The notes beneath the pieces are model-generated. The model did not search any database. It was not told the origin of the DNA and saw only the letters and a list, made by a program, of their open reading frames with translations. From assembly GCA_000018565.1 (NCBI GenBank), contig CP000875.1, forward strand, positions 124,001 to 188,000: a stretch of 64,000 bases of DNA, read 5' to 3'. Position 1 is the first letter of the stretch. The number at the start of each line of letters is the position of its first letter. Below, piece by piece: positions 41,430-63,829 of this stretch. The DNA comes from Herpetosiphon aurantiacus DSM 785. GTDB lineage: Bacteria; Chloroflexota; Chloroflexia; Chloroflexales; Herpetosiphonaceae. The position numbers and the translations under genes were made by a program.

Positions 41430-41578
41430 GGGGGTCGGGGATCGGGTTTGATCCACGAAGGACACGAAGAGCACGAAGCATTATTGTTTAGCCACGAATT
41501 ACACGAACTACACCAAAATATGCCGCTAGCCAATCGATCTAATTTTGATTTTTGACCTTTGCCTTTTGCCTTTCAGAG
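41430..41578. repeat. Word repeats before the NB-ARC/TPR gene
   Basis: GGGGGTCGGGGATCGGG, then GGACACGAAGAGCACGAAGC, then TTTGCCTTTTGCCTTTC words occur in turn within 150 bp. The last sits directly at the ribosome binding site of the NB-ARC/TPR gene. No gene is present. Confidence 0.7.
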
Positions 41579-46394: not shown

Positions 46395-46510
46395 TATCAG
46401 CTAGAGACTTTTGGCTATCGGAATCATTCTCATTCTACAAAACGTTCCGATAGCCCATAGCCCATAGCCCCATTTCTATGTTCTATGCTCTATGTTCTTT
46501 GTTCTAACTA
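46395..46510. repeat. ATAGCC and TTCTATG word repeats
   Basis: GGCTATCGG, CCGATAGCCCATAGCCCATAG and TCTATGTTCTATGCTCTATG words fill the gap between convergent genes and run into the last codons and stop of the DUF4386 gene. Confidence 0.75.
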
Positions 46511-47135
46511 AAACTACTCCAACCCACAAAAACCAGCCAATCATGCCGATACCGAAGAGCGTGCCAACTGCGGCGATCGCTGGAACCGTCATTGCGATGC
46601 CCGATGCGCCAATCAGCAGGCCAAGATAATTGAGTGCTTTAGGTAGGCGTTTAGTTTGCAAGGCTGCAATACTGATTAAGCTGACCCAAACGCCGCCAGG
46701 CAACTCGATTGCCCCACCTAATCCACTCGCCACCGCCGAAATTGCCGTCGAGACAGCGAGGGTTTGCTCAGGGTTCTGCTGCTGAAGATCGGCAATAATT
46801 TTGATATTGTTGACCAACAACATACCACTAGAAAGAATCGTGGTCGCCCAAATGATCCCCATAGCTGTGGTTACCTGGATCAACAGCGGATGTGCTTGCT
46901 GCAGCCGGTGATGCAAGGCAATTGCCAGCGGAACCATCCAAACTCCAGCGACCAAATAAATAATCAGATACCACAGGGCCATCAAGTTTTGATGTTCGAT
47001 CAAAAAGCTGATCTTTTCAGCTTGGCTGGCTTCGAGAAAAGGGGCTAAAAGGGTGAAGACTATGCCAATGCCGATAATATAGGCAAACCCATTGATCAAG
47101 GCGGCAATGCCACCCCATTTTTGTGTGCTATGCAT
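46476..47135 (-). CDS. DUF4386 family membrane protein
   Basis: A 219-residue protein with six hydrophobic helices and the DUF4386 layout, including WGGIAALINGFAYIIGIGIV at the start and ELPGGVWVSLISIAAL near the middle. Function unknown; some relatives are called putative sensors or permeases. The C-terminal tail KNIEHRT and the stop codon are encoded by an intergenic TCTATGTTC word repeat, so the natural end may have been altered. It stands alone. Confidence 0.75.
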   Translation of the reverse strand: MHSTQKWGGIAALINGFAYIIGIGIVFTLLAPFLEASQAEKISFLIEHQNLMALWYLIIYLVAGVWMVPLAIALHHRLQQAHPLLIQVTTAMGIIWATTILSSGMLLVNNIKIIADLQQQNPEQTLAVSTAISAVASGLGGAIELPGGVWVSLISIAALQTKRLPKALNYLGLLIGASGIAMTVPAIAAVGTLFGIGMIGWFLWVGVVLVRTKNIEHRT

Positions 47136-49299: not shown

Positions 49300-49480
49300 A
49301 GGTAAATCAAAAGTCAAAAGGCAGAAGTCAAAAGGCAAAATAGGGGTCAGGGGCTAGGGGTCGGGGATTGGGCTTCTAACGCAGAGTAGGGTCTAGGCTA
49401 GTGGAAGATTTTTTAAATTTCCAAGGATCTCCCAAGCCAATAGCCATATCTTCGTGTCCTTCGTGTCCTTCGTGGATCAA
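49300..49480. repeat. Mixed word repeats upstream of the rplJ promoter
   Basis: AAAAGGCAGAAGTCAAAAGG words (49307-49342), GGGGTCAGGGGCTAGGGGTC words (49343-49374) and CTTCGTGTCCTTCGTGTCC words (49451-49476) occur in turn. The gap 49194-49698 has no gene but contains the rplJ promoter and leader. Confidence 0.75.
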
Positions 49481-60886: not shown

Positions 60887-61924
60887 ATGAGCCTCGCTCT
60901 CATTTCACACGATCATTATCTCGACCACGATCAGCCTGAGCACCCCGAAAATGCCAATCGGCTACGGGCGATTCATGCCATGCTGGCAGCTGATTATGAA
61001 TTGCAACAGCACTTAACCCCGCTTGCACCACGCCATGCAACTGCTGCTGAAATCGAGGCGGTGCATGTGCCAAGCCATTTGCCAACCCTACAACGGATGG
61101 CCCAATTTGGCGATTGGGCTGATGCTGAAACCTATATTTTGCCAGATTCGGTCGAGATTGCCCAACTTGCTGCTGGCGGCGCGATTGTCGCGACTGATGC
61201 AGTGCTCAGTGGTCGGCATGCCAATAGTTTTGCTTTGGTTCGCCCACCAGGCCATCATGCGACCGCCGACCAAGCTATGGGATTTTGCTTGTTCAATAAT
61301 GCGGCGATTGCGGCGGCCTTTGCTCAACGTGAATATGGCCTCAAACGAGTGGCAATTTTGGATTGGGACGTGCATCATGGCAACGGAACCCAAGATATTT
61401 TCTACCAAAACCCCGATGTGCTCTACATCTCGACCCATGGCTGGCCGCTTTGGCCCAACTCAGGTCATTGGAAGGAGATGGGCGCGAACGCTGGATTGGG
61501 CACGACCCTTAACTTGCCATTACGCCCATTAACTGGCGATATGGGTTTTCATCTGGTGTTTGAACAAGCGATTGCCCCAGCTATTCGGCGCTTCAAGCCT
61601 GAGTTATTGATCATCTCGGCGGGCTATGATGCGCATATTTACGACCCATTGGGGAATTTGGCACTCTCCACTGGCGGTTATGCCCAGCTATCGTCGATCG
61701 TGTATAATTTAGCCGCCGAGTGCTGCGATGGACGCTTGGTGGGCTTGCTTGAGGGTGGTTACAACCTCGAAGCCCTCGCTCAAAGCCTCACTGCAACGCT
61801 GCAAACATGGGTTTCTGGTCAGCCTGCCCCGATTTTCAATCAAGAAGTCAGTCATACCCCAGAACCCGATGTTACCTGGCTGATCGAGCATCTCCGCCGC
61901 GAACATCCGCTTTTGAAGGGATGA
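60887..61924 (+). CDS. Histone deacetylase / acetoin utilisation-type amidohydrolase
   Basis: A 345-residue zinc amidohydrolase of the histone deacetylase superfamily. HPENANRLRAIHAML, RPPGHHAT with the catalytic histidines, DWDVHHGNGTQDIF with zinc ligands, ISTHGWPLWP and ISAGYDAHIYDPLG are present. In bacteria these enzymes deacylate polyamines or lysines (acetylpolyamine amidohydrolase, AcuC). ATG at 60887 has GAGGAG upstream; the frame from 60824 is not preferred. Confidence 0.9.
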   Translation: MSLALISHDHYLDHDQPEHPENANRLRAIHAMLAADYELQQHLTPLAPRHATAAEIEAVHVPSHLPTLQRMAQFGDWADAETYILPDSVEIAQLAAGGAIVATDAVLSGRHANSFALVRPPGHHATADQAMGFCLFNNAAIAAAFAQREYGLKRVAILDWDVHHGNGTQDIFYQNPDVLYISTHGWPLWPNSGHWKEMGANAGLGTTLNLPLRPLTGDMGFHLVFEQAIAPAIRRFKPELLIISAGYDAHIYDPLGNLALSTGGYAQLSSIVYNLAAECCDGRLVGLLEGGYNLEALAQSLTATLQTWVSGQPAPIFNQEVSHTPEPDVTWLIEHLRREHPLLKG

Positions 61925-61927
61925 ATT

Positions 61928-62332
61928 ATGAGGGCAGAAGGCAGAAGGCAGAAGGCAAAAATCAAAATAGGGATGAAGAACATAGAGCATAGAGGTACTG
62001 GATTCTAGGGTTAACCACGGCGTGATTCCCTCACCCCCTTGCCCCCTCTCCCGCCCAGCAGGCGAGGGGGAATCACGCTCGGAGTGCTCCCCTCGCCCGC
62101 CGCAGTGGGAGAGGGGCTGGGGGTGAGGGACGGTTAGAACTGGTTGTTCATCCTATGAACCATTACACATAAGAATATAGAACATAGGGATCGCGGATCG
62201 GGGGCTGGGCTTGGGAATAGGCTATTGACGCTTGGCTATCGGAACGTTTTGGAATTTCAAACTAGCCCATAGCCCATCCCAGACCGATCCCCAACCCCCG
62301 ATCCCCGACCCGCAATACATACAAGGACACTT
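61928..62332. repeat. Word repeats and inverted repeat region before hisH
   Basis: GGCAGAAGGCAGAAGGCAG (61934), ACATAGAGCATAGAGG (61980), the family 1 repeat at 62028-62129, AATAGGCTATTGACGC words (62215) and GATCCCCAACCCCCGATCCC words (62285) fill the 408-bp gap. No gene is visible. Confidence 0.7.
62028..62129. repeat. Dispersed ~100-bp nested inverted repeat, family 1, copy D
   Basis: CCCTCACCCCCTTGCCCCCT opens and GGGGCTGGGGGTGAGGGA closes; inner arms GCAGGCGAGGGGG and CCCCTCGCCCGC. Nearly the same as the copy at 12168, although 50 kb away. Confidence 0.88.
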
Positions 62333-62965
62333 ATGATTGCAGTGATCAATTATGGAGCTGGCAACTTGCCCAATGCAGTGCGAGCCTTGGAATATGTTCA
62401 AGCCCCGATCGAAGTGGTGACTGATCCAGCGGCAGTACGGGCGGCGCAGGCAGTGGTTTTGCCTGGCGTTGGCGCAACCGCCGATACCATGCGCTCGTTG
62501 CGTGAAATGGGCATGGATTCAGCAATTCGCGAGGTGATTGCTCGCGGAACGCCATTTTTGGGCATTTGTGTGGGTATGCAAGTGCTGGCCGAGCAAAGCG
62601 AAGAATTTGGCTTGCACGAATGCCTTGGCTTAGTGCCAGGCACGATTCGCCGCTTCGATCAAGGCTTGAAAGTACCACAAATTGGCTGGAACGGCGTGCA
62701 GCACGATGGCAGCGCCTTGTGGGATGGGATTCCCAACGGAGCTGAATTTTATTTTGTGCATTCCTATTATTTAGCAACTGACGATGTAGCTTTGGTCACT
62801 GGCCGTACCGAGTATGGTCTGAATTTTCCGGCAGCGATTGCCCGCGATAATATTACTGCTGTCCAGTTTCACCCCGAAAAAAGCGGCCAATGGGGGCTAA
62901 AATTGCTGGGGAATTGGGTTGAATTGGCACTGAGTCGGGGTTCAGGGGTCGGGGATCGGGCGTAA
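62333..62965 (+). CDS. hisH: Imidazole glycerol phosphate synthase, glutamine amidotransferase subunit
   Basis: A 210-residue class I glutaminase of histidine synthesis, which feeds ammonia to His[19 protein letters not shown] at the start, GVGATADTM, the nucleophile in [14 protein letters not shown], the catalytic [16 protein letters not shown]. The last ten residues ([10 protein letters not shown]) are encoded by a GGGGTCGGGGATCGGG intergenic word repeat, so the natural C-terminus, near ELAL, has been extended. It is followed 142 bp later by hisA, though hisF is not seen. Confidence 0.94.
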
Positions 62966-63106
62966 CATTCAAGCAATCTCAATATTATAGAGCTATAACA
63001 AGGCGATGATAGAGCGCAGCAGGATCGTATAAAACTGGGCTGGTTTGGCAAACATAGCCGATCCCCAACCCCCAAAACCCGATCCCCAATGACTTTTAGG
63101 AGAACC

Positions 63107-63829
63107 ATGCAACTTATACCAGCAATCGATTTGCGCGATGGCCGTTGTGTGCGGCTGGTGCAAGGTGATTTTGAACAAACCACCGTCTATGGCGATGATC
63201 CGGTGGCGGTCGCGCAGCAGTGGGAAGCAGCCGGCGCTGCCCGTATTCACATTGTTGATCTTGATGGAGCCAAAGCTGGTCGCCCAACTCAAACCAGCAC
63301 GATTGCTGCAATCACCAAAGCGGTCAGTGTGCCTGTGCAACTTGGTGGTGGCTTGCGCGATGCCGCCAGTATTGCCGCCGCTTTTGAGCTTGGCGTGAGC
63401 GATGTGATTTTGGGCACGGTAGCGGTGCGCAACCCTGAATTGGTGGCCGAATTGGTGCGCCAATATGGTAAGGCGATTACGATTGGTATCGATGCCCGCA
63501 ATGGGGTCGTGGCGACCGAAGGCTGGCTGGCGAGCAGCCGTCAACGCGCAACTGAACTAGCTGAACAAATGGGTCAACTCGGAGTTGCGCGGATCATCTA
63601 TACTGATATTAGCCGTGATGGCACCTTGAGCGAACCAAATTATGCTCAAACTGCCGCCTTGGTAACCCCCAATGGCCCAGCAATTATCGCTTCTGGCGGC
63701 ATCGCCCGCGTTGAACATTTGGCGCGTTTGGCTGAACTGGGCATTAGCGGGGCAATTATTGGCACGGCACTTTATACAGGCCATATCGATCTGGCCTCGG
63801 CAATTCAAACGATTGAACACGGAGGCTAA
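63107..63829 (+). CDS. hisA: Phosphoribosylformimino-5-aminoimidazole carboxamide ribotide isomerase
   Basis: A 240-residue TIM-barrel isomerase of histidine synthesis. [20 protein letters not shown] at the start, [36 protein letters not shown], and [16 protein letters not shown] with the second catalytic aspartate, and [15 protein letters not shown] at 63107, after AGGAG. A word-repeat block separates it from hisH. Confidence 0.95.

Follow-up and report, generated by a model that had tools for sequence, protein, structure and literature searches.

In Herpetosiphon aurantiacus, the gap between hisH and hisA is filled by an inverted pair of 7-bp-word arrays, whose left arm forms the C-terminal tail of HisH; this tail is one case among many heptad arrays spilling over gene borders. 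Herpetosiphon is a predatory bacterium, HisH is an enzyme of histidine synthesis, and bacterial heptameric repeats are a long-standing observation whose origin and function are unsettled. The comparisons described below showed a period of 7 bp, a clustering of the arrays at stop codons and an outward orientation of their purine-rich strand at both gene ends, together with differing words at one orthologous site and gap alleles contradicting the flanking genes. A sequence-only reading had noticed the word at the end of hisH; it had missed that the word is an arm of an inverted pair, that other genes end in arrays of other words, and that the strand polarity is general.

The hisH gene (62333-62965, plus strand) lies in the window, i.e., the whole 64-kb stretch of DNA that was analyzed, and encodes 210 aa, the coordinates including the stop codon TAA at 62963-62965. 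Its product matched TIGR01855 (HisH) with 211.8 bits against a cut-off of 105.4. This profile aligned to residues 2-197 of 210, leaving the last ten codons (62933-62962, plus strand) outside it, and in the predicted model of HisH (15 aligned sequences; mean pLDDT of 91.4), the pLDDT dropped from 97 at residues 191-200 to 51 at residues 201-210, where the tail is predicted to be disordered. These data agreed with the earlier claim that the word extends a conserved enzyme. The last ten codons consist of G-rich 7-bp words, above chance in comparison with dinucleotide shuffles. Exact copies of GGGGTCGGGGATCGGG were found at 41431 and 62945 in the window, and 11 matches with up to three mismatches were observed versus 0.35 expected (100 dinucleotide shuffles, largest 2), confirming that these codons are made of recurring words. 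The exact copy at 41431 belongs to a G-rich heptad array at 41430-41446 (plus strand) and a copy with one mismatch at 49357 to another at 49343-49372 (plus strand); further copies were located at 62187 (two mismatches), 62283-62312 (one to three) and 63057 (two). The recurrences quoted in the sequence-only reading (41433, 49360, 62200, 62290 and 63060) therefore all exist, but those near 62290 and 63060 (found at 62283-62312 and 63057) lie on the minus strand, which had escaped that reading. Genome-wide, the word with at most one mismatch gave 18 matches versus 11 for a reversed control pattern; the exact 16-mer is enriched only mildly on this scale, and the 7-bp period is the robust feature. 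The word has no stop codon, so hisH reads through it.

The inverted pair at 62935-62959/63058-63082 was 84% complementary. Its left, purine-rich arm of G-rich heptads (62934-62959, plus strand, within a lag-7 array at 62932-62963) contains four runs of at least three G in aurantiacus and is followed by a spacer, designated allele A (62966-63057), and by a right, C-rich heptad arm (63058-63090) that ends 10 bp before the AGGAG of hisA (63107-63829, plus strand; in-frame ATG at 63089; 266.7 bits versus 228.95 for TIGR00007). A second inverted heptad cassette lies directly upstream of hisH (62187-62316, plus strand), with an inner module of TAGCC words and an inverted pair at 62187-62214/62278-62305 that was 71% complementary. 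An array of GGCAGAA words (61921-61970, plus strand) begins at the stop codon of the gene preceding hisH. The palindrome CCCTCACCCCC...GGGGGTGAGGG at 62027-62130 also bears period-7 tracts, yet it represents a separate abundant family, which was filtered out by its motif and accounted for 60 of the 86 period-7 GGG arrays in 764 kb.

Matches to HisH at E ≤1e-40 were obtained in 77 of the 82 genomes of the order, and the C-terminus was read in 43 loci and the gap in 42, in two collections with partly the same places. The hisH-hisA gap was 90-141 bp in all six Herpetosiphon genomes, and the HisH tails differed among the six, except for G004 and G006, which share one. When the C-termini of close relatives were aligned, as the sequence-only reading had proposed, the tail varied across the five congeners: GRGQGSE (twice), RGQALGIGDRD, RGRALGIRDRD and VRGQGSAQH. 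Two other members of the family (G008 and G001) had gaps of -4 and 1 bp and the short ends NWVHRIAA and NFIRRAA, and in another genus of the same family (G007) the gap was 99 bp and contained a hairpin built from a wholly different, AGCTGC-like heptad word. Elsewhere in the order the gaps ranged from -10 to 34 bp, apart from two places (69 and 81 bp) where the sequence was unlike heptads of this kind. In the HisH loci read, 21-46 residues followed the conserved HPE, so that the end of HisH is free to vary.

We then considered heptad arrays at gene borders in general, with a lag-7 array defined as at least 15 of 21 matches at lag 7 and border genes as ORFs of at least 150 aa, the genes being plain longest-ORF calls. 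In 764 kb of the aurantiacus chromosome, 60 lag-7 arrays were found, 50 of them between ORFs of at least 150 aa. An array started between -40 and +5 nt from the stop in 13 of 562 ORFs; the same count at lags 4, 5, 6, 8, 9, 10, 11 and 13 was 1, 0, 1, 1, 2, 0, 1 and 0, respectively. For arrays at most 150 nt from a border, the purine-rich strand pointed outward in a ratio of 21:2 at starts and 17:2 at stops, for a total of 38:4 (Fisher p = 1.7e-7 on the left/right table); arrays with a purine content of 45-55%, like those farther than 150 nt from any border, were excluded from the polarity counts. The unchanged test gave 40:5 in 400 kb of H. geysericola (p = 1.1e-7) and 38:6 in 400 kb of G006 (p = 1.5e-6), the aurantiacus and G006 samples covering partly orthologous regions and hence not being fully independent. 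Pooled over the three genomes, 116 of the 131 arrays lying no farther than 150 nt from a gene border had the purine-rich strand outward. For the outward-purine arrays, the median distance to the border was -0.5 nt on the stop side and 43 nt on the start side, and 29 of the 56 stop-side ones touched or overlapped the stop.

Stop codons occur in some words when these are read in one orientation and could bias where ORFs end. In-word stop codons were, however, insufficient as the cause of the polarity, because arrays with more stops on the pyrimidine strand still gave 15:3 at stops; start-side arrays were outward-purine 60:5 in all. Sorted by word, the pooled ratio was 81:11 for words with 0-1 G-tracts, 7:2 for two G-tracts and 28:2 for at least three. 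This result suggests that, in the Herpetosiphon samples, words with 0-1 G-tracts obey the same strand polarity that has been published for quadruplex-forming words, so quadruplexes cannot be the whole cause of that polarity. At lag 9, a weaker outward bias of 16:6, 18:4 and 6:4 was observed in the three samples (p = 0.08, 0.006 and 1.0), and at lag 8 in aurantiacus there was a non-significant opposite lean (3 outward-purine versus 8 not, p = 0.24). Lag-9 arrays numbered 58, 53 and 35 in the three samples, and 9-bp words such as CACGAAGGA and TTCGTGTCC (41450-41500 and 49440-49480) are also frequent in Herpetosiphon gaps. Within the same order, a genome of another family (G064) carries long heptad arrays of AACCGAG, GGTTGAA and TAGCCGA, with 125 lag-7 arrays per Mb versus 5 in a second genome (G014; 200 kb of each).

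Other proteins besides HisH have ends written by heptads. An array overlapped the last 36 nt by at least 6 nt in 6 of 562, 8 of 280 and 6 of 304 ORFs in the three samples, some of them at the stop only. TrpG ends in EVRG, from TTAGGGG words, in aurantiacus and G006, and in VERT, EVRA or SKSIEHRA (twice), from AACATAG words, in the other four species. Similarly, an array of AACATAG and TAGCCCA words (46442-46510, minus strand) covers the 3' end of the ORF at 46476-47135 (minus strand) and writes KNIEHRT plus the stop; the AACATAG words yield KNIEHRT or KNIEQRT in aurantiacus, G006 and llansteffanensis, and GGATGAA words yield RMKDEG in G004, a comparison in which the end was not read in giganteus and geysericola had no match. 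At both trpG and the 46476 gene, the stop codon is supplied by the word itself. An IE[HQ]R[AT] ending from the AACATAG word was seen in 10 unrelated open frames in the three samples, four of them longer than 200 aa and six shorter than 80 aa, which may not be genes.

The hisH-hisA gap occurs in two forms that contradict the history of its flanks. Allele A is carried by aurantiacus, llansteffanensis and geysericola and allele B by G004, G006 and giganteus; the two part directly after the GNW codons and rejoin before AGGAG, with sharp borders. The flank tree was ((aurantiacus, G004, G006), (llansteffanensis, geysericola, giganteus)) with a support of 100/100, and the gap tree separated the three A from the three B sequences, also with 100/100. 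Forcing the flank grouping on the gap changed the log-likelihood by -44.3 units (AU p = 9.9e-6) and forcing the A group on the flanks changed it by -134.6 units (AU p = 3.3e-5); both were rejected, the groups having been named post hoc, once the data had been seen. Three allele changes were counted on the tree, in which the forks within both clades are unsupported. Among eleven gaps examined in 20 kb, the 225-bp gap between g16 and g17 (recovered in five genomes) and gaps of 13, 16 and 44 bp (the last in three genomes) agreed with the flanks; several others vary in length, and one was recovered in aurantiacus alone. The gaps g11-g12, g12-g13 and g19-g20 also differed strongly between aurantiacus and G006, at 29-44% identity. 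Within-allele identity across the clades was 70-79%, versus 78-83% for the ordinary gap g16-g17, and being no higher than this, it suggested that the exchanges, if exchanges they were, are old. A spacer inversion as the difference between A and B was not supported, as the reverse-complement scores of the nine A-B pairs (10-17) were within the shuffle maxima (21-26).

Taken together, we consider it probable that the tail is the purine arm of a 7-bp cassette, and that slippage and cassette replacement are tolerated at gene edges. That cassette, an inverted pair of arms made of 7-bp words, fills the hisH-hisA gap and would intrude a few codons into hisH because HisH tolerates variation beyond about residue 197. 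Slipped-strand replication would lengthen and shorten the arrays, recombination or template switching would swap single arms or whole cassettes, and arrays would persist where they do little harm, as at free protein ends; before a start, a pyrimidine-rich sense strand could not mimic a ribosome-binding site and would thus be tolerated there. Slippage and exchange in the arrays are suggested by sequence comparison rather than witnessed, and a neutral view alone leaves the outward purine rule at distances of up to 150 nt unexplained. The hairpin may act on the his mRNA, with no sign of selection for that here. The outward purine rule, together with the many unrelated 7-bp words at Herpetosiphon gene borders, might reflect a single process that rewrites heptads at gene edges, an idea that we regard as doubtful and tentative.

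An alternative that we regard as unlikely is that a hairpin or G-quadruplex between hisH and hisA is selected because it tunes translation coupling or mRNA stability, the tail being a by-product. A G-rich arm faces a C-rich arm in all six Herpetosiphon genomes, the left hisH arm has its four G runs, G007 has a hairpin of another word at the same place, and arms within the same gap tend to have a word in common (mean score of 9.5 versus 7.4, permutation p = 0.011, with 30 non-independent pairs from 23 gaps). However, the fold energy of the gap was ordinary relative to dinucleotide shuffles (z = -1.5, 0.3, -1.4, -3.1, -3.2 and -0.8 in the six Herpetosiphon genomes and -1.6 in G007), so that an exceptional RNA fold was unsupported; arms crossed between Herpetosiphon species paired about as strongly as own arms, leaving arm co-evolution by pairing energy equally unsupported. 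The polarity of words with 0-1 G-tracts argues against this explanation as well, as do the 24 of 26 non-palindrome G-rich arrays in 764 kb that have no opposite-strand partner within 300 nt by the same criterion. No Rfam family reached its cut-off within 61900-63150, the seven matches with E ≤1 all being far under the gathering scores.

It is improbable that a MITE- or REPIN-like mobile element gave rise to the cassette by inserting between hisH and hisA, even though the inverted arms, the sharp borders and the alleles contradicting the flanks are features of this sort, and partial matches to the inner module of the second cassette, upstream of hisH, are numerous across the six genomes. Full- or partial-length matches to the allele A spacer were confined to the corresponding position in llansteffanensis and geysericola, with word-length matches of up to 24 nt elsewhere; for allele B, the matches listed elsewhere were mostly arm words, and a different genus bears a different word at the same place. 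No dispersed mobile copy of the hisH-hisA spacer was found in the genomes searched. Still less credible, in our judgment, is a useful peptide, such as a stability tag, or the keeping of arrays as three-frame stop signals. Since 7 equals 1 modulo 3, three units of a stop-bearing word give a stop in every frame, and the recurrent AACATAG-written endings could be taken as a shared peptide; on the other hand, the HisH tails vary in sequence and length between congeners, the aurantiacus tail is predicted to be disordered, the hisH word lacks a stop, and the majority of the AACATAG-ended frames are the very short ones.

The Herpetosiphon samples show how intergenic repeats turn into the termini of conserved enzymes and can also provide a stop codon, orthologues having differing words; such heptad-written ends bear on the annotation and comparison of C-termini. 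The word-independent polarity and the turnover of words and cassettes at orthologous borders are worth following. If the word-independent rule is true, it would point to one process that changes protein C-termini and stop codons while writing heptads, and the GGGNATC repeats of Xanthomonas and Nostoc would then be explained without invoking quadruplexes.

A literature search, with most subscription journals outside it, returned no account of such arrays in Herpetosiphon and no report of polarity for words without G-tracts; in the H. aurantiacus 114-95T genome paper, the word "repeat" occurs twice, once in a CRISPR count and once in a reference title (PMC3368417). REPINs are extragenic inverted pairs with predicted hairpins (PMC3116915), like the cassettes described here, but dispersed whole-unit copies were not found for the hisH-hisA cassette, the long matches of spacer A being confined to the same place in two congeners. 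MacGregor (2015) described TAACTGA direct repeats in Beggiatoaceae, intergenic and near start codons, with 13 sets overlapping the stop codon of the preceding gene and one inverted set (PMC4679880). These resemble the Herpetosiphon arrays as intergenic heptamers overlapping ORF ends; unlike the latter, they are one fixed word, absent from the hisH arm, with hardly any inverted sets (PMC4679880). In the Nostoc tRNA-Leu intron, Kaasalainen et al. (2015) reported a P6b stem-loop of 7-nt repeats that fall into two classes; replacement of one class by the other has occurred repeatedly and conflicts with the phylogeny (PMC4476775). The 7-nt-repeat stem-loop and the two alleles discordant with their flanks are alike in both systems, although P6b lies in a group I intron and the present arrays lie between hisH and hisA and in coding sequence (PMC4476775).

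The closest likeness is to the heptamers GGGNATC (Xanthomonas) and GGGGA(C/T)T (Nostoc) of Rehm et al. (2015), mostly intergenic and of unknown function (PMC4692102). The GGGNATC repeats are antisense within 50 bp before starts and sense within 50 bp of stops, all those overlapping a stop are sense, and two xanthomonads have 70 and 75 inverted pairs (PMC4692102). The Herpetosiphon arrays share with them a tandem G-rich word of the same kind (GGGGATC), inverted pairs and stop overlap (PMC4692102); exact and near copies of the word lie at 62945 and at 10 further window positions, the words keep a heptad register, and the arrays with at least three G-tracts follow the same ORF polarity within 150 nt in the three genomes. 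The Herpetosiphon arrays differ in belonging to another phylum, in the many words without G-tracts that share the polarity, and in the differing words at orthologous borders. The GGGNATC repeats form quadruplexes (PMC4692102), and four G-runs were seen in the aurantiacus arm. The Herpetosiphon arrays thus belong to an otherwise known kind of bacterial repeat, for which polarity and stop overlap have been published before (PMC4692102).
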